Origin: an uncultured Pelagibacteraceae bacterium
Lineage (GTDB): Bacteria; Pseudomonadota; Alphaproteobacteria; Pelagibacterales; Pelagibacteraceae
Direction of reading: 5' to 3'
Assembly (NCBI GenBank): GCA_902516345.1
Contig: CABXYJ010000002.1
Span: forward strand, 1 to 64,000
Length of the DNA: 64,000 nucleotides
Under the pieces are notes generated by a model. The model saw only the letters and a program-made list of their open reading frames with translations, ran no database searches and was not told the DNA's origin. Made by a program: the position numbers and the translations under genes. Below are positions 10,227-47,241 of this stretch, piece after piece (position 1 is the stretch's first letter; each line of letters opens with the position of its first letter).

Positions 10227-10784
10227 TTAGTAATTAATTTTTATAGTTCCTATTATTTTAAAATTTTTATCTGAAATAACTATTTCTCCAGAAGATGGAG
10301 CATAATCTAAAGCTTCAGATATTACTACATAATGAGTAACTAAAACTATATTTTTTTGAGTTTTAGATAACTCCAAATATTTTTTTAAGTCTTTCATTTG
10401 TTTATTTCTATTTTTTGCAAATTTTGAACTATAAAATGAATTTAGAAATGAATTAGTAGAAAATTTTCCAAATGCGATTTTTGCTGTATCTTTACATCTG
10501 CACCATTCGGATGACAACACTTCATAAACTGTAATCTTATTGTCTTTAAAAAATTTTCCAATTTTTTGTGCTTGAATTCTTCCCTCTTTACTTAAATTTC
10601 TTTGAGTTGAACAATCTCCCAAATTGAAATTTTCAGGATCTCCACCTCCTGGAGCATAAGCATGTCGTATGAATATTAATTTTTGACCATCTTTTAAACT
10701 ATTTACTAAGTAATTATTTAAATCTGCTTTAATAGACGTTGTTAAAGATATAAATATGATTATTAAAAATTTAAAAAAATTCAT
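10227..10784 (-). CDS. Histidine phosphatase family protein, probably exported
   Basis: LIFIRHAYAPGG (RHA motif), SSEWCRCKDTA, VLVTHYVV; N-terminal signal. Confidence 0.85.
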   Translation of the reverse strand: MNFFKFLIIIFISLTTSIKADLNNYLVNSLKDGQKLIFIRHAYAPGGGDPENFNLGDCSTQRNLSKEGRIQAQKIGKFFKDNKITVYEVLSSEWCRCKDTAKIAFGKFSTNSFLNSFYSSKFAKNRNKQMKDLKKYLELSKTQKNIVLVTHYVVISEALDYAPSSGEIVISDKNFKIIGTIKINY

Positions 10785-10786
10785 TA

Positions 10787-11467
10787 ATGAATATTAGAAT
10801 AGAAAATCTGAATAAAACAGTAATTAACTGCAAAAAATGTCCCCGACTTGTAAAATTCATACATAAAATCAGAACTGAAAAAAGAAAACAAAATATCAAT
10901 GAAACTTATTGGGGAAAACCAGTTCCAGGCTTTGGAAATATTAATTCAAAATTAGCAATTATTGGTTTAGCTCCTGCTGCACATGGCGGAATTAGAACTG
11001 GGAGAGCTTTTACCGGTGATAAATCCGGAGATTTTTTATTTAAATCACTATATGAGGCAGGAATATCAAATAATCCATATTCAAAAAATCTTAATGATAA
11101 TCTGAAACTAAATTCTACTTACATAACTAATGTATTAAAGTGTGTGCCACCTGGAGATAAACCACTAAGACGAGAACTAATTAATTGTTCTAATTTTTTT
11201 GATACAGAGATCTTATACCTAAAAAAATTAAAAGTTATTGTAACACTTGGAAAAGTGGCTTTTGATAACTGTACTAGTTTATATAAAAAAAAATTTCTGA
11301 TTAAACAAAAACTTACATTTACTCATGGAAAAGTACAAAATTTACCAAATGGTTTAATAATACTACCAAGTTATCATCCTAGTCCTAGAAACGTTAATAC
11401 AAAACTTATCACTCTAACAATGATGATCAATTTGTTTAAAAAAGCTAAAAACTTAGCTAAATTTTAA
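10787..11467 (+). CDS. Family 5 (UdgB-like) uracil-DNA glycosylase
   Basis: CKKCPRL, GFGNINSKLAIIGLAPAAHGGIRTGRAFTGDKSG, LPSYHPSPRN. Confidence 0.9.
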   Translation: MNIRIENLNKTVINCKKCPRLVKFIHKIRTEKRKQNINETYWGKPVPGFGNINSKLAIIGLAPAAHGGIRTGRAFTGDKSGDFLFKSLYEAGISNNPYSKNLNDNLKLNSTYITNVLKCVPPGDKPLRRELINCSNFFDTEILYLKKLKVIVTLGKVAFDNCTSLYKKKFLIKQKLTFTHGKVQNLPNGLIILPSYHPSPRNVNTKLITLTMMINLFKKAKNLAKF

Positions 11468-24279: not shown

Positions 24280-24365
24280 TGGTGCCCTCGGCCAGACTCG
24301 AACTGGCACTCCGCAAGCGGCAAGGATTTTAAGTCCTTTGTGTCTACCAATTTCACCACGAGGGC
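24280..24365 (-). tRNA. tRNA-Leu (TAA), intact; integration target
   Basis: Class II tRNA, acceptor GCCCTCG/CGAGGGC, anticodon loop CTTAAAA, encoded CCA. Confidence 0.96.
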
Positions 24366-24368
24366 ATT
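24326..24368. repeat. att-like repeat copy A (part of intact tRNA-Leu)
   Basis: ATTTTAAGTCCTTTGTGTCTACCAATTTCACCACGAGGGCATT. Confidence 0.95.
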
Positions 24369-24418
24369 AATGAATTTCATGAGTGTTTATGCCATTATTT
24401 ATAATTGAACAAGATGAA

Positions 24419-24468
24419 TAAGTAAATTTTTTTTATTTTATCTCTCTAGATCCGAGAATGATCCGAGA
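24419..24468. repeat. Unit 1 left subterminal repeat containing GATCCGAGA-at-GATCCGAGA
   Basis: Matches 28687-28736; 32 bp perfect core TTTATCTCTCTAGATCCGAGAATGATCCGAGA (24437-24468). Confidence 0.9.
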
Positions 24469-24509
24469 GTTGTCCTATAAAATCCTATAAGAATATATAA
24501 ATTTAAATA

Positions 24510-24881
24510 CTATCTCCTTGCGTCATCCAACCTTAATGTATCACTGAAATCTTCAGGACCTGGACTGAAACTTGAATACAATACAATAATCAAAAAGATA
24601 ATTGCTACTCCCCAATAAATTGGCCTTAATGGTTTGTGAAATTCTTCTGAGTCTTTCTCACGAGCTTCCCGAGCCTTATAAAATTCTTGTCTTTTTTGAT
24701 TATAAATTCTCTCTAATTCCTCAGTTTGTTCTTTAGTTAAAATCGCTTTTTTATCAAATGGAAAAAGGCCATCTCTTAAATTATATGGATGAAATTGTGT
24801 GAATTCTTTAACATCATCTTCACCATATATCTTGGAATTTTTAGCCTTACTTAATATTTTTTTAAATTTTTCTTTATTCAT
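24510..24881 (-). CDS. Hypothetical protein with C-terminal TM segment
   Basis: ORF track; hydrophobic IYWGVAIIFLIIVLYSSF. Confidence 0.6.
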   Translation of the reverse strand: MNKEKFKKILSKAKNSKIYGEDDVKEFTQFHPYNLRDGLFPFDKKAILTKEQTEELERIYNQKRQEFYKAREAREKDSEEFHKPLRPIYWGVAIIFLIIVLYSSFSPGPEDFSDTLRLDDARR

Positions 24882-25550
24882 TTAAAAATTTTCTACAATT
24901 ATATTTGATAATTCTGTTTTAGAAACTTGAAATTTTTTTTCAAAATGATTTGATAAATTTAATCTTTCTTCCCAATTACTAGCCCTTATTTTTTTTATAA
25001 GTTTGATTGTTTTGTCATCATATTCAAATAAGTAATATGTCTCATTCCAAGGCATTCCAAAAGCATAGCCGACATCGATAAATAACTCATCTTTTCCATT
25101 TTTATTAAGATCTTTATCTATATAAAAATTAATATTTAAATATATTCTTCTATCTTTAAGATGTTTTCTGCCTTTAAAAAAATCAGTTCTAGAGTCGTAT
25201 TTTTCCTCATTTTTATAAAACACTTTAAAATAAGTATCATTCATACCTCGGCATCCATTATTTTCGTAAAAAACCAATTTAACACTGTTGTTTATAGACT
25301 GAGTTAGAATAATTTTTTTAAACCCATCAGAATCATATTTAGTATAGTTTATAGAAGTAAATTTTTTTTTATTAAAATAAAAACAATCCCCAGACCAACT
25401 TATACGCTTATTACTAGAAGGATTTTCATCCATAAATTTAGCAGCTTCTTTGTAATTTTTATAACCATCATCAGCAAAGTCATATTCTTTAGCGAGACTT
25501 ATATTTATTGAAAGTAAGGATAATAGTAAAATAATAAAAAATTTTTTCAT
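24882..25550 (-). CDS. Secreted hypothetical protein
   Basis: ORF track; signal peptide MKKFFIILLLSLLSINISLA; abuts 24881. Confidence 0.6.
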   Translation of the reverse strand: MKKFFIILLLSLLSINISLAKEYDFADDGYKNYKEAAKFMDENPSSNKRISWSGDCFYFNKKKFTSINYTKYDSDGFKKIILTQSINNSVKLVFYENNGCRGMNDTYFKVFYKNEEKYDSRTDFFKGRKHLKDRRIYLNINFYIDKDLNKNGKDELFIDVGYAFGMPWNETYYLFEYDDKTIKLIKKIRASNWEERLNLSNHFEKKFQVSKTELSNIIVENF

Positions 25551-25569
25551 AGTTTAAACATCATTTCAT

Positions 25570-26010
25570 CTAATAAAATTTACACAATTCATCAACATAT
25601 TCGTAACTAGGTGCAATACCAACTTTATTACCTTTTAAATCAAAAATTGTTAATCTAGTTGGCTCAGCCCAACCTCCTGCAAAAAAATATTCTTTAACAC
25701 TAGCAAAAAAAATTGGTTGTTCTTTAATCATTGTGCACTCCTTTGCAAATTTGCCAAAACTAAAAACTCTTTTAATTGAAGTCCTTGAATTTGTTTTGGG
25801 ATCAACTAGCCATAGTTCCTGATAAGTAACTTCTTGAGTGATTACATATTTTTCATTTTCTATCTCATATTTTTCAATTATATCTCCATATTTCTCAGCG
25901 TTAAAAGATTTATAACTTGCGGCCCAAGCTTTATCTTCACCTATCAGTAAGCTTATTGTTAATATAAAAATGAATAAAATAGAAAATGGATACAAAAACC
26001 ATTGTTTCAT
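25570..26010 (-). CDS. Exported hypothetical protein
   Basis: ORF track; N-terminal signal, co-directional with neighbours. Confidence 0.55.
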   Translation of the reverse strand: MKQWFLYPFSILFIFILTISLLIGEDKAWAASYKSFNAEKYGDIIEKYEIENEKYVITQEVTYQELWLVDPKTNSRTSIKRVFSFGKFAKECTMIKEQPIFFASVKEYFFAGGWAEPTRLTIFDLKGNKVGIAPSYEYVDELCKFY

Positions 26011-26129
26011 TAATAAACTCTAAACTTAAATATTGTCTTTATTGTGTTAATTTTTTGTAACCAGTACTTCATCTAATTGCTTTCCCAGTGTTTACTCATT
26101 TTTTTGAAAGGACAACAAATTCATTTTTT

Positions 26130-27158
26130 TCATATAATTTTTAAATCATTGTCAAAAATTGATTTAATATTTGCAACAATCTCCTCAGGGAAATTGAATA
26201 CTTCTTTATATCCATCTAATTGTTCAGGATTAATTTCTCTATCTCTATATTTTGAAAATTTATTTAATAATTTTTTTTCAATCAAATAACATTGATATAA
26301 ATTTGTTTTAAAATGTTTAACTAATTTAAAGCTTGAAAATTCTTTAGATAATCTATCTCTAATTGTTTTAGTGGTTATTCCAATTTTATACCTATTATTA
26401 TTATTAATTAAAACAGAGGCGAAATATAATTTACCTGAAGTATTAGCTAATTCTGGATTTTTTTTAAAAATTTTCATGTTATACCTGCCCTCATTGCCAA
26501 TATTATTGTTACCTAAATCTAAAGCTTCTCTAATGGTTAATCCTCTATTTAATCTATTGCGCAAAAGAGAGACTGAAAAATTAAAAACACTACAAAGATG
26601 ATTTCTATCTCTATAAAATTTTCCTTCAAATTCAAATGAGTGTTCAGTTGGTTTCAGCTCTAATTTAAATGCCTGATTAATGTTTGCTCCCTTTTCCAAT
26701 GCTGCTACAACTGTTTCGGGTGTTAATCTATAATGTCTGGCTGCTTCAGATATTGATTTATATGTTTTATTTTCAATAGTAATTTGTCTTGATCTAAATC
26801 CTCCTTGACCACCATTAGTTAATCCTGAAGGAATTGATAAAGCTCTTTCTAAAGACCAACCATATTCTTCATATCTTTTTCTAAATGTACAATAATTTAC
26901 ATTATTTTTTCTACACGCATCTTGTTTTGATTTGTATCCTACTCCATTGACAATTAGGCTAAATTTAATTTTTTTTTCAGGAGGTTGGTAATTTTTACGT
27001 TTTTTTTCTGGAACCAAATCATCGCCTTTAGCTCCACGCGAGTATCTTTTGTATACACAATTTTTTGTTATACCGTATGCTTCAGCTATCGAGGGAAGGT
27101 TTGGATATTCCACTCCCTCGACAACATGACTTCCTAATCTAGAAATTATTTTTCTCAT
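26130..27158 (-). CDS. Protein with about four tandem HTH-like modules and C-terminal GIY-YIG/T5orf172-like domain
   Basis: Modules of ~45 aa (YPNLPSIAEAYGITKNCVYKRY; YKSKQDACRKNNVNYCTFRKRY; YKSISEAARHYRLTPETVVAAL; YRDRNHLCSVFNFSVSLLRNRL); C-terminus KLYFASVLINNNNRYKIGITTKTIRDRL. Confidence 0.65.
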   Translation of the reverse strand: MRKIISRLGSHVVEGVEYPNLPSIAEAYGITKNCVYKRYSRGAKGDDLVPEKKRKNYQPPEKKIKFSLIVNGVGYKSKQDACRKNNVNYCTFRKRYEEYGWSLERALSIPSGLTNGGQGGFRSRQITIENKTYKSISEAARHYRLTPETVVAALEKGANINQAFKLELKPTEHSFEFEGKFYRDRNHLCSVFNFSVSLLRNRLNRGLTIREALDLGNNNIGNEGRYNMKIFKKNPELANTSGKLYFASVLINNNNRYKIGITTKTIRDRLSKEFSSFKLVKHFKTNLYQCYLIEKKLLNKFSKYRDREINPEQLDGYKEVFNFPEEIVANIKSIFDNDLKII

Positions 27159-27163
27159 ATTTC

Positions 27164-27511
27164 TTAAGTAGGTTTTTTATTTCCCCTTTCTTTTATGATT
27201 TCCATAAAGTCGATTACTTCACCTTCATCTTTTGCATCGTGAGTACTCTCTGCAATACACTCAACATCTTTAGGTATTTTTTTACTTTTACGATCTTCTG
27301 CAAAACCTTTAATACCTTCAGAATAAACTTTATGAGGTTGTTCAGTTGCAATTTTGACCATACCCCTTGCAATTCCTGAGCATAATTCATAATTTTCTGA
27401 GGACATTTCAGAGGACGACGACATCATAACTCCACATGTAAATCCACGTTCCCACGGAGCAACTAGCACCTGCACTGAGTTTTTGATATTTAGTTTGTTT
27501 TCCTTTTTCAT
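27164..27511 (-). CDS. Hypothetical protein
   Basis: ORF track; ATGA-type overlap with the upstream gene at 27508. Confidence 0.55.
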   Translation of the reverse strand: MKKENKLNIKNSVQVLVAPWERGFTCGVMMSSSSEMSSENYELCSGIARGMVKIATEQPHKVYSEGIKGFAEDRKSKKIPKDVECIAESTHDAKDEGEVIDFMEIIKERGNKKPT

Positions 27512-27732
27512 ATTTCAACACATTCGCCCTCAATGATTGCTTCGTCTTCCAAAACATCTTCATTAAGTACTAAATTTTCCTCATTTAAGAGTATTTTGGC
27601 ATATTTCGAAGCAATCTTGGCTTCAATGAGAGCCGATAAGCATCCAAATGAAATATTAGTTTTTTCTCCTTTCGTTATTGTGATTTCAATTTGGGGATAT
27701 AGGGTATTATTAATTTTAGTTATATCGCTCAT
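27508..27732 (-). CDS. Hypothetical small acidic protein
   Basis: ORF track; 4-nt overlap with 27164..27511. Confidence 0.5.
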   Translation of the reverse strand: MSDITKINNTLYPQIEITITKGEKTNISFGCLSALIEAKIASKYAKILLNEENLVLNEDVLEDEAIIEGECVEI

Positions 27733-27805
27733 CGTTGAGTTAGATATAATTTGTATGATAAAAAAATAAAGCTAAGCTTAACTGCTGGAAGTTTCCGAAA
27801 GTAAA

Positions 27806-28600
27806 TTATCTTACCTTTAAAAAAAGACCCCAGTTATCTTCCCAATGATGTTTGAAATCTGGTTCATATGCTTGAAAATAATTTAAATCATATTGGGGTT
27901 CTTTAATTTTCATTATGCAATCATTAAATTCTTCAATTTCTTTTCTAAAAATCGATTTATTATTTTTTTCTTCAAAACTTTTGTTTAATAAGGACTCTCT
28001 TTGTTTCCAATAATTATCGGTATCAAGTATCTTTTTAACTGTATCTTTTTTATTTGGAAATTTAATATTTGTTATAAATTTATTTTTTCCTAAATTAGAT
28101 AATTCTTTTCTCTCCTCATTTTTCATTTTATATAAAGCTTTATAAGAAGCATTTCTTTGTTCTTTGGGCATATCTTCGACTTCACTATAAAGGTGCTCTA
28201 AAAAATCTATATCTCCCAGATTAGCACTATATGAGGCTTTTCTACCCTTTTGGATACCCAATCCGCTTGAGAAAGCATATGAAGTATGTAACATTAAATA
28301 TAATTTCTCATTTACAAGTTTATTAATTTTTTTGTTAGGTTTTTTTGTATACTTTTTATAAAGTTGATGAAATTCATCTATATGTTTTTTAATATATTTC
28401 CTAAGTATGACGTTACATTCTACCAATCTATACTTTCCATAAAGATAAATTCTATAATTTTTCCAAATTGATTGTGTTCTAGGTTTTCTTTTTTTCAAAT
28501 TAAATTTGGTTTTCCATTCTGAAGGAAAAATAATATTACTTTTATGTAGAAAATTTTCCAATTCTTCGAAAGTTTCAATTTTTCTTTTATTTGAACTCAT
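27806..28600 (-). CDS. Hypothetical protein, no recognised domain
   Basis: 264-aa ORF, first gene of the unit 1 minus-strand block. Confidence 0.6.
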   Translation of the reverse strand: MSSNKRKIETFEELENFLHKSNIIFPSEWKTKFNLKKRKPRTQSIWKNYRIYLYGKYRLVECNVILRKYIKKHIDEFHQLYKKYTKKPNKKINKLVNEKLYLMLHTSYAFSSGLGIQKGRKASYSANLGDIDFLEHLYSEVEDMPKEQRNASYKALYKMKNEERKELSNLGKNKFITNIKFPNKKDTVKKILDTDNYWKQRESLLNKSFEEKNNKSIFRKEIEEFNDCIMKIKEPQYDLNYFQAYEPDFKHHWEDNWGLFLKVR

Positions 28601-28686
28601 AAATTTAAAATAGCATAAATAATCGTACTCCGCTATGTACTACTCATTTGTGATTATTAATTATAAAGAGCAAAGTTTGGTGGGAG

Positions 28687-28736
28687 TAAGTAGATTCTTA
28701 TAAATTTATCTCTCTAGATCCGAGAATGATCCGAGA
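28687..28736. repeat. Unit 1 right subterminal repeat containing GATCCGAGA-at-GATCCGAGA
   Basis: Direct copy of 24419-24468; perfect core at 28705-28736. Confidence 0.9.
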
Positions 28737-28860
28737 ATCTGAAAACTAATTGTTAAGATTTTCCAATAAAAATAACCCAATGATTTTAAAAGTTATGGGA
28801 TTATAAGGGATTTAGATCATTAGAGACCATTAGAGACTCTAAAATTCCTCAACTCAAACT

Positions 28861-28903
28861 ATTTTAAGTCCTTTGTGTCTACCAATTTCACCACGAGGGC
28901 ATT
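28861..28903. repeat. att-like repeat copy B (5' half of tRNA-Leu, truncated)
   Basis: 43-bp perfect copy of 24326-24368 lacking the tRNA 3' half. Confidence 0.95.
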
Positions 28904-28920
28904 CCAATTTGTCATTCTTA

Positions 28921-28991
28921 TAACTCACTTTATTTATAACTCAACCTAGTAAACAAAAGCAAATTAATATGGTGTATGACTGGTGTATGAC
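28921..28991. repeat. Unit 2 left subterminal repeat containing GGTGTATGAC-t-GGTGTATGAC
   Basis: 71 bp, no gaps, about 60/71 identical to 31322-31392 by hand count. Confidence 0.9.
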
Positions 28992-29175
28992 CCAAGTCAT
29001 CCGAGGGGTCCCAAATGGAAGTCAAAAAAGCTTAGGTTTTTAAAGGTCAATACCCTTAAATATATAAAGGGGTCCCACTACTTTCCCCTGTGTTGAAATA
29101 TTTATATTTTAAAGTTATTCTTATTAATATAATTTATAAAAATTAACTATAAAACAAATCTCTTTAACTAATCAA

Positions 29176-30465
29176 ATGTATATAAAAAAATATTATCTAC
29201 TAGCAAAACATACGCTTTTTCCAATATGCAGAAGTTTAACTGGCGATGGTTTTAGAAAATCCTTAAAAATTATAAAAAAAGAATTTCCTAAATTAAATAT
29301 ATACAAAGTGGCATCTGGAACTCGAGTCTTTGATTGGCATGTACCTCCTGAATGGAATATTAAAGATGCGTATATTTTAGATAAAAACAATAAAAGAATT
29401 ATTGATTTTAAAAATAATAATCTCCATTTAGTAGGATACTCCATTCCTGTTAATAAATATTTTTCAAAAAAAGAACTTTTTAATCATATTCATTCCTTAC
29501 CCGAGCAACCAAAAGCAATTCCATATATTACTTCATATTATAAAAAAATTTGGGGATTTTGTGCAAACCACAATGAAAAAATAAAATTAGAAAAAAACTA
29601 TAAAAATTCAGACAAATTTAAAGTTGTTATAAAATCTAATTTAGATTCAAAGGGCCATTTAAATTATGGAGAATTAATTTTAAAAGGAAAATCAAAACAA
29701 GAAATCTTAATTTCTACTTATTTATGTCATCCTTCAATGGCAAATAACGAATTGTCTGGTCCAATAGTTTCTATGTCTTTAATTAAACATTTTAGTAGGA
29801 TAAAAAATCTAGAAAAAACTATAAGATTTATTTTTATACCTGAAACCATCGGTGCAATTACTTACCTTAGTAAAAATTTAAATTATCTAAAACAAAATAC
29901 CATAGGAGGATACCTCCTAAGTTGTATTGGAGATGACAGGCAATATGGTTGTATGCTCTCAAAATATGGAAATACTCCGTCTGATAAAGCTATTATTATG
30001 GCATTTAAAAGTTTAAAAATTAAATTTAAAAAATATTCTTTTTTAAGAAGAACTGCCGATGAAAGACAATATAACTCTCCAGGGATAGATTTACCAATAG
30101 CATGTATATATAGATCAAGAGATGGTGCATACCCTGAATACCATACATCATTAGATAATTTTAGTTTAGTAACTGAAAGTGGTGTTAAAGGTGGTTTTAA
30201 AGTTGCTAAAACAGCAATTAATATACTCCTTAAAAAAATCATACCCCAAAATAAAATTTTGTGTGAACCAAAAATGGATAAAAGAAATCTTTACCATTCA
30301 TTATCAACAAAAAAAATAAAGAAAATTTATCAACATTATTTGAATTTTTTACAATATGCTGATGGAAAAAATGATTTAGAGAGTATTTCTATTTTATTAA
30401 ATATTAAGATAAGTTTAGCATATAAAATATATAATGTTTTAAAAAAGAAAAAATTGGTCCTTTAA
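29176..30465 (+). CDS. DUF4910-like/aminopeptidase-fold protein
   Basis: LFPICRSLTGDGFRKSL, RVFDWHVPPEWNI, STYLCHPSMANNELSGP, RRTADERQYNSPGIDLP, EYHTSLDN. Confidence 0.8.
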   Translation: MYIKKYYLLAKHTLFPICRSLTGDGFRKSLKIIKKEFPKLNIYKVASGTRVFDWHVPPEWNIKDAYILDKNNKRIIDFKNNNLHLVGYSIPVNKYFSKKELFNHIHSLPEQPKAIPYITSYYKKIWGFCANHNEKIKLEKNYKNSDKFKVVIKSNLDSKGHLNYGELILKGKSKQEILISTYLCHPSMANNELSGPIVSMSLIKHFSRIKNLEKTIRFIFIPETIGAITYLSKNLNYLKQNTIGGYLLSCIGDDRQYGCMLSKYGNTPSDKAIIMAFKSLKIKFKKYSFLRRTADERQYNSPGIDLPIACIYRSRDGAYPEYHTSLDNFSLVTESGVKGGFKVAKTAINILLKKIIPQNKILCEPKMDKRNLYHSLSTKKIKKIYQHYLNFLQYADGKNDLESISILLNIKISLAYKIYNVLKKKKLVL

Positions 30466-30466
30466 A

Positions 30467-31324
30467 ATGAAAATTCTATCTCATAAATTTTTTAATTCTA
30501 AAAAAGAAACTAGTTATTATTCTCAATTATATAAAAAAATTAATTTTAAAGAATCTTATCCAGCAGATGTAAAAAGACTGGAAATCTTTAAGTCACTTAT
30601 AAAGAAACATAAACCAAAAACTATAGTTGATGCCGGATGTGGAGCAGGTATGCCATTAATTCAAATAAAAAAAATGGGATTTAATATTACTGGTTATGAT
30701 AAAGCAAAAAATATGGTTAATGAAGCAAAGGCAAATTTAATTAAATATAAACTCCCAGAAAAATTAATTGATATTGGGAATTTTGAAAATCCAAAGCATA
30801 TAAAAGATAATTCAATAGATTGTATTTTGGGTATGGGAACTTTCTATTACTCAAAAAATTTTATCCAAACATTAAAAAACCAAAGAAAAAAACTAAAAAA
30901 AAATGGAAGATTAATTTTTTCATTGAGAAATCAATTATTTGATATTGCTACTTTAAATGATTATTCAATTAAATTTTTTTCAAATTTATATGAAATAAGC
31001 AAAACTAAAAATACATTAAAAAAAAAATATTTAAGATTATTTCAAGGATATTCTGATAGAAAAAAATTTAAATTAAAAAACATTGATGACAGCCAAGTTT
31101 ACTCTAAAACATATAATCCTCTCACAATTGAAAATCTAATTTTGAGTAAAGTAGGACTAAAATGTAATGGAATATATTTTTATCACTTTCACGCCTTGCC
31201 TCCAATATTTGAAAATATTGATAAAATTAATTTTAGAAAGCAATCTTTCAAGATTGAAAAACCAAATGACTGGAGGGGTTTTTTTATTGCCTCTGGTTTT
31301 GTCATTGACTGTCAAAAAAAATAA
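30467..31324 (+). CDS. Class I SAM-dependent methyltransferase
   Basis: TIVDAGCGAGMPLIQIKKMGFNITGYDKA; 1 bp after the preceding gene. Confidence 0.85.
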   Translation: MKILSHKFFNSKKETSYYSQLYKKINFKESYPADVKRLEIFKSLIKKHKPKTIVDAGCGAGMPLIQIKKMGFNITGYDKAKNMVNEAKANLIKYKLPEKLIDIGNFENPKHIKDNSIDCILGMGTFYYSKNFIQTLKNQRKKLKKNGRLIFSLRNQLFDIATLNDYSIKFFSNLYEISKTKNTLKKKYLRLFQGYSDRKKFKLKNIDDSQVYSKTYNPLTIENLILSKVGLKCNGIYFYHFHALPPIFENIDKINFRKQSFKIEKPNDWRGFFIASGFVIDCQKK

Positions 31325-46833: not shown

Positions 46834-47241
46834 TTATATTCTTTGACTTAAAGCAAAAATAAGATGTTTGTATTCAAGTTCACAATCTTTGTAACCTCTT
46901 TTTACGATATTTAGATAACGATCTGAGGGATATCTAAATGTTGTTTTATTAGTCATAGTATAAGTCATGACTTTTTTTTTACCGTAAAAAAAATAATATT
47001 TCTTATATAAAGTAGGGAAATCTTCGTAAATATCTAATTTTTTTTCATCATTTTTTGATATTTCAAATAAGGCGCCCGGGACAATTGAATCTTTTTTTTT
47101 TTCTATATCGGCAGCTCTAAATCTACTACGAAATGTAAGTCGAAAATTTTTTAAATTTATTTTCTTGATAAAGATACTGTCTTTACATCTTCTTTTCATT
47201 TGAATATGATTTAGATTACTGCCGTAAGCAAAATAAAGCAT
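46834..47241 (-). CDS. Gamma-glutamylcyclotransferase-family protein
   Basis: LYFAYGSNLNHIQMKRRC. Confidence 0.88.
   Translation of the reverse strand: MLYFAYGSNLNHIQMKRRCKDSIFIKKINLKNFRLTFRSRFRAADIEKKKDSIVPGALFEISKNDEKKLDIYEDFPTLYKKYYFFYGKKKVMTYTMTNKTTFRYPSDRYLNIVKRGYKDCELEYKHLIFALSQRI

Follow-up and report, generated by a model that had tools for sequence, protein, structure and literature searches.

The single tRNA-Leu(TAA) gene in a stretch of SAR11 (Pelagibacter-like) DNA carries two tandem insertions on its 5' side, which are separate elements in the same orientation. The stretch analyzed (here the window) is 64,000 nucleotides long, and the genome that it comes from has 28.6% GC. The preferred reading, to which we give a probability of roughly 0.85, is that a tyrosine recombinase places such elements on the 5' side of the tRNA gene, that autonomous versions exist in relatives, and that the two elements of the window are non-autonomous members with the same ends. 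SAR11 bacteria are among the most abundant organisms in the ocean, and in most of the genomes examined a single-copy tRNA gene serving 56% of leucine codons is joined to upstream DNA borne by an element.

The tRNA-Leu(TAA) gene and its tandem elements

The intact gene lies at 24280-24365 on the minus strand (ARAGORN and Rfam) and is the only full match in the window's genome; the same holds in the complete relatives G012 and G082, where the gene is single-copy. Its 3' half (24280-24325, minus strand) is the host part, and its 5' half (about 24334-24365, minus strand) is attributed to element 1. The halves are joined in the anticodon loop, seven nucleotides (24327-24333, minus strand; TTTTAAG, or CTTAAAA on the tRNA strand) that are the presumed strand-exchange overlap. 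The left junction is a 43-bp block composed of the tRNA 5' half and the anticodon loop (copy A, 24326-24368, minus strand). This block recurs at the junction of elements 1 and 2 (copy B, 28861-28903, minus strand; tRNA nt 1-40 plus 3 bp), where it is identical to copy A at 43 of 43 positions (BLAST E = 3e-17 within the window). The earlier note had placed the intact tRNA at the left end and had described copy B as a 5' half only, and both points were borne out. Copy C (31519-31539, minus strand) retains 21 bp of core only, the first 21 bp of the 43-bp block, and the displaced 5' half past it has been lost. The arrangement of copies A and B is far beyond chance, and the same 5'-half-only pattern is found in dozens of related genomes.

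At its ends each insertion has the tRNA 5' half or its core, together with terminal repeats of its own, and it is because each interval has its own end repeats that A-B and B-C are considered to be two elements. Element 1 (24326-28860, plus strand, about 4.5 kb) has the terminal repeat pair TTTATCTCTCTAGATCCGAGAATGATCCGAGA at 24437 and 28705. Its left arm-type repeats (24437-24468, plus strand) comprise GATCCGAGA twice with a period of 11, at +84 and +95 from tRNA nt 1, a position conserved across elements; the right arm-type repeats are at 28705-28736 (plus strand). A phage-type endonuclease-like protein with HTH repeats and a MUG113/T5orf172 GIY-YIG-like domain is encoded at 26130-27158 (minus strand). 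Six other cargo ORFs, all on the minus strand and spanning 24510-28600 (24510-24881, 24882-25550, 25570-26010, 27164-27511, 27508-27732 and 27806-28600), had no family match in Pfam or PHROGs. Element 2 (28861-31518, plus strand, about 2.7 kb) has the terminal repeat pair GGTGTATGACTGGTGTATGAC at 28971 and 31372, with left arm-type repeats at 28971-28991 (GGTGTATGAC twice) and right ones at 31372-31392, both on the plus strand. Its cargo is a DUF4910/DUF2172 aminopeptidase-like protein (29176-30465, plus strand) and a methyltransferase-like protein (30467-31324, plus strand), and its right end is similar to that of an integrase-bearing element in another genome (G202, locus L126). An integrase gene was not found in either element with Pfam or PHROGs, and no protein in the window proves mobility.

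In relatives the native right flank of the tRNA is a gamma-glutamylcyclotransferase-like gene (gene cluster 2), the counterpart of which in the window is at 46834-47241 (minus strand), about 22 kb from the tRNA. The position of this native neighbor implies an island of about 22 kb that ends just left of the gene. The native flank was assigned by gene order, compared by eye with related loci, and by flank sequence.

Attachment sites, arm repeats and the integrase

The tRNA was found in 72 of the 101 genus genomes searched, and extra partial copies were overwhelmingly 5' halves. Related loci, named as Pelagibacteraceae single cells, were sampled as 60 from the genus search and 80 named loci reached via the neighboring NAD kinase gene. 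Among 134 distinct loci with an intact tRNA, 62 had at least one displaced copy, 22 had DNA inserted before the native neighbor with no copy visible, 10 were empty and 40 could not be resolved because the available sequence stops too early. The native neighbors, named from reading the sequences, were an AzlD/AzlC-like pair, oxidoreductase-like (cluster 21) or gamma-glutamylcyclotransferase-like genes. Eighty extra 5' halves lay on the 5' side on the tRNA strand and one lay on the opposite strand; a single extra 3' half was seen in the 134 loci. Three criteria were applied to integration. In the window, direct repeats that match part of the tRNA exactly flank the insertion and the gene is restored (A/B, 43/43, and an intact tRNA), and empty sites occur in relatives. 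An integrase of the element's own is absent from the window's elements and present in relatives at the same tRNA site.

In all displaced copies the tRNA sequence runs as far as the anticodon loop (plus-strand TTTTAAG), and one of a few recurrent right-end sequences comes next. Identity to the tRNA is lost just 3' of this heptamer in every copy and in the phage and satellite attPs alike. The identical 43-bp block lies beside an integrase gene in Pelagibacter phage HTVC105P and in AP013542, and the tRNA 5' half was found as an attP in 23 IMG/VR contigs, in a search that demanded a full 39-bp match and would have missed shorter attPs. Three satellites among these contigs (L092, L107 and L111) are regarded as complete circles because they have terminal repeats, of 99, 123 and 99 bp, respectively. 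They are 7.7-8.9 kb long and encode an integrase and a primase-helicase, with no structural gene recognized.

The satellite recombinase (545-549 aa) matched PHROG_1 (E=4e-20) and, below Pfam's cut-off, PF00589 (E=5e-5). R373, K400, R485 and Y518 did not vary across ten relatives and H508 hardly did, while another residue takes the place of the first box II His. An AlphaFold model (mean pLDDT 79.5) resembled lambda integrase (E=5e-6) and weakly matched the arm-binding domains of P4-like integrases (rmsd 1.9-2.5, E 0.07-0.25). The protein is a diverged tyrosine recombinase. Matches of its profile to PDB sequences were designed helical proteins and were taken as spurious. The same integrase is present at this tRNA in the SAR11 chromosomes G168 (L125), G120 and G202. 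The element of G168 is intact throughout, and the native AzlD gene lies beyond its displaced half. Only 5 of 300 genus genomes had the integrase. A XerC/D-like recombinase was considered as the mover. There is one PF00589 match per genome, not near the tRNA (on another contig in the window's genome), and this candidate was set aside in view of the arm-type sites at the ends and of the dedicated integrase found in relatives. In G158 (L121/L127) a tRNA-Ser(GCT) gene lies between an integrase relative and the next element genes; tRNA-Ser as a second target was rejected because the gene sits inside the element.

A period-11 tandem repeat (at least 8/10 matches) was present in 109 of 203 element or native ends, against 20 of 203 after shuffling, and in only 1 of 16 native-adjacent ends. 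Nearly all of these repeats begin between +80 and +84 relative to the tRNA, with a matching arm pair about 146 bp inside the right end. The repeat unit has 68 spellings; its sequence thus varies between elements while its position is fixed. Integrase-bearing and integrase-less elements share this layout, and many ends with the upstream block of element 1 (type 1) have no clear arm repeats. The GATCCGAGAATGATCCGAGA of element 1 is close to the TATCCTAGAATGATCCTAGA of satellite L107. The exact arm repeats of the window were not found in IMG/VR, since arm sequences differ between elements and only their position is fixed. One locus, L073, has a 267-bp remnant that consists solely of a left end, one arm pair and a right end, which is what recombination between an element's two arm pairs would leave.

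In the mechanism that we propose, a tyrosine recombinase would act on an attP that combines the tRNA 5' half with the heptamer of the anticodon loop and a right end specific to the element, and the partner site would be the anticodon loop of the one tRNA-Leu(UAA) gene. Given such an attP, insertion would be on the 5' side. The host 3' half would thereby be joined to the element-borne 5' half and upstream block, which would restore an intact gene. The native 5' half and upstream DNA would end up at the far end, where they could decay or be used again when further elements stack. The autonomous forms would be either satellite-like, with a large lambda-fold integrase and a primase, or temperate pelagiphages; the window's two elements would be non-autonomous cargo carriers with the same ends. 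The 5'-side location, the replaced upstream DNA, the matching attPs and the circular forms of autonomous relatives were all observed. Movement of the window's elements in trans by such a recombinase is most likely, and is inferred, without excision data, from their sharing ends with relatives while encoding no integrase.

Exchange of the upstream DNA and the presumed tRNA promoter

Empty and occupied sites were compared in four sets: L200/L125, L143/L144, L143 or L059/L048, and L159/L189. Over 60 bp, the upstream sequence of the empty site was 82-93% identical to that of the displaced copy, compared with 45-68% for the occupied tRNA. The values were 93% versus 45% for L200/L125, 82% versus 51% for L159/L189, and 85-88% versus 67-68% for L143/L059 against L048/L144. 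In the empty L143 and L059 an oxidoreductase gene lies 48 bp from the tRNA, with TTGAGTTATAAATAATTGTGGATATAA upstream; in the occupied L048 and L144 this gene is 48 bp from the displaced 5' half, and the element block is at the tRNA. The left flank agreed in most comparisons (76-87%); in those with L144 it agreed at only 48-49%, and the tRNA-proximal flank of L144 differs. With the upstream DNA swapped in this way, the functional gene of an occupied strain owes its 5' half, and everything upstream of it, to the element. The earlier note had inferred insertion on the 5' side, with the element supplying the 5' half and upstream region and the native ones displaced. This inference is supported by the 80 copies against one, by the attPs and by all four comparisons. 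Polymorphism between 5' and 3' halves was also considered as proof of hybrid tRNAs and judged weak, as host variation is mostly in the variable arm. In the empty L159 the tRNA 5' end abuts the 3' end of a glutamylcyclotransferase-like gene, as the displaced half does in L189; as there is no intergenic space, the L189 element may have added a promoter that was absent from the empty state.

Copies A and B have the upstream blocks AATTATAAATAATGG and AGTTATAAATAAAGTG, respectively, and upstream of copy B the sequence TTGAGT (28939-28944), 16 bp, TATAAG (28917-28922; minus strand, 28917-28944 overall) is present as first described; its layout is that of the native upstream DNA at several empty sites. 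The presumed tRNA promoter supplied by element 1 is a conserved 70-bp block (24366-24435, minus strand). In 178 distinct type-1 ends, conservation was 1.4-1.9 bits per column from -70 to -1 and fell to 0.2-0.5 bits beyond -80. The best -35/-10 reading is TTTACT (24421-24426), 17 bp, TATAAA (24398-24403) on the minus strand, ending 32 nt before the tRNA. A strict -10/-35 scan found nothing at this spot, and the sigma-70 consensus score of 19 upstream types (mean 9.0, versus 8.57 shuffled) barely exceeded chance, being reached by 15 of 300 shuffles; consensus scoring by itself is therefore weak evidence. The first element gene points toward the tRNA in 102 of 112 type-1 loci and away in 10, and in these 10 a promoter is therefore needed within 74-175 bp. 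The tRNA itself is needed: its gene is single-copy, and UUA accounts for 56% of leucine codons in the long ORFs here. That the 70-bp block is a working tRNA promoter is inferred from its conservation and position, from the 10 loci and from this need, without transcript data.

The earlier note would have been refuted by the presence of the window's upstream block at empty sites, and this was the case in 2 of 10 (L197 and L200) and not in the other eight. The type-1 block also lies beside three displaced native copies (L063, L125 and L161). It is therefore common to elements and some hosts, and is not exclusive to elements; the direction of transfer is left open, and many insertions may swap like for like. 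These same five occurrences are what favors the possibility that the block is a host promoter copied by elements, so that insertion usually swaps in an equivalent and adds nothing new in function. We hold this to be a serious possibility, albeit one that we lean against, given the other upstream sequences at 8 of 10 empty sites, the difference between tRNA and displaced-copy upstream DNA in L125, L048, L144 and L189, and the unrelated upstreams in phages and satellites. Such a history would alter where the block came from, not the element's physical supply of it. Transcription mainly by read-through from element genes aimed at the tRNA, without a dedicated promoter, would fit the 102 loci with that orientation and the HTVC105P integrase gene, which stops some 85 bp short of the tRNA half on its upstream side. 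It is improbable in view of the 10 loci with the first gene pointing away and 74-175 bp between, and of a conserved block that lies directly upstream and whose conservation stops near -75.

The tandem copies could also have arisen by segmental duplication or homologous recombination rather than by site-specific integration. Homologous exchange clearly also occurs, and the L073 remnant looks like an arm-repeat deletion. As an account of the copies, however, duplication is scarcely credible: every copy breaks off at the anticodon loop, the copies are 1-9 kb apart and carry unrelated cargo, and their arm repeats, private to each element, sit at fixed distances; the copies also match attPs found in phages and in circular satellites. 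A further proposal is that SAR11 elements are exchangeable promoter cassettes for the essential tRNA-Leu(UAA). One incoming element after another would take over the gene, each having arm repeats of its own as an address for its particular helper integrase, and mobile DNA would thus determine how much of the tRNA for the commonest leucine codon is available. This proposal is speculative and less likely than not.

Relation to known systems and other elements at the site

A review states that recombined tRNA genes of bacteria, with very few exceptions, keep using their original promoter (PMC8371274); nearly all elements that target tRNAs thus spare the host promoter, and the arrangement inferred here is the reverse. 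The pTN3-like archaeal integrases use the 5' half and expression is from the integrase promoter, an arrangement seldom found in bacteria (PMC8371274). Like the elements described here, pTN3-like elements (Thermococcales) have as attB the 5' half of a tRNA gene or of a related gene, and the element side drives expression of the restored gene, which in our case is inferred (PMC8371274). According to PMC6563490, which cites Zhao and Williams 2002, 5'-distal recombination is considerably less frequent, and the bacterial element of Zhao and Williams 2002 was 5'-targeting like the SAR11 elements. These known 5'-targeting integrases are described as suicidal, with the gene split by integration, or as isolated cases. 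The SAR11 system differs from them in that the integrase, where present, is intact beside the site, and in its tandem stacking, private arm repeats, preponderance of elements without an integrase, and occupation of the site in most genomes examined. Integration on the 5' side with an element-borne promoter is thus known but rare in bacteria, and is common at this SAR11 site. By anatomy the SAR11 elements belong to this rare kind; what sets them apart is their prevalence, their stacking, the existence of non-autonomous members and the private arm repeats.

Tycheposons of Prochlorococcus and other marine bacteria are likewise tRNA-targeted cargo elements or satellites in streamlined ocean bacteria; they have a tyrosine recombinase (PMC10872708, PMC11389934), unlike the window's elements, which have no recombinase. 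The pelagiphage HTVC105P (Pelagivirus), with its identical 43-bp tRNA-Leu(TAA) 5' half beside an integrase gene, differs in being a full Autographiviridae phage with a short, 297-aa integrase; in the pelagiphage comparison, no arm-repeat layout matching that of the elements was seen in L115. In gene content the three circular satellites resemble phage satellites of the PICI/VEIME kind, being circles with an integrase and a primase and no recognized structural gene, and the window's elements have neither an integrase nor a primase gene. With the gene joined to element-borne upstream DNA in most genomes examined, host dependence on mobile DNA, promoter exchange and trans-mobilization of cargo become directly testable with existing strains and single-cell genomes.

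Cargo at the site includes genes related to osmolytes, pilin and the cell surface. One element, about 2,177 bp long and of the same length in L036, L054, L057, L137, L191 and L049, has sugar-phosphatase-like and glucosyl-3-phosphoglycerate-synthase-like genes, and elements in L047 and L126 (12927-16583) have tandem arrays of up to nine or so type IV pilin-like genes. In L087, L088 and L091 the anticodon stem of the tRNA contains a compensated pair (ACGGA/TCCGT in place of AAGGA/TCCTT), and both resolved loci among them are empty. Such sites are possibly resistant, since the 5' half of an element would mispair; the cases are few and closely related. Insertions of the usual orientation were also seen at the same tRNA in L129 (oriented 10775-10830), L176 and L207/L209, where the native 3' half ends at TTTTAAG and is followed by foreign DNA with AATGCACA-type repeats. 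In L176 and L207 these include what reads like an integrase gene, and both orientations of insertion thus coexist at one tRNA.
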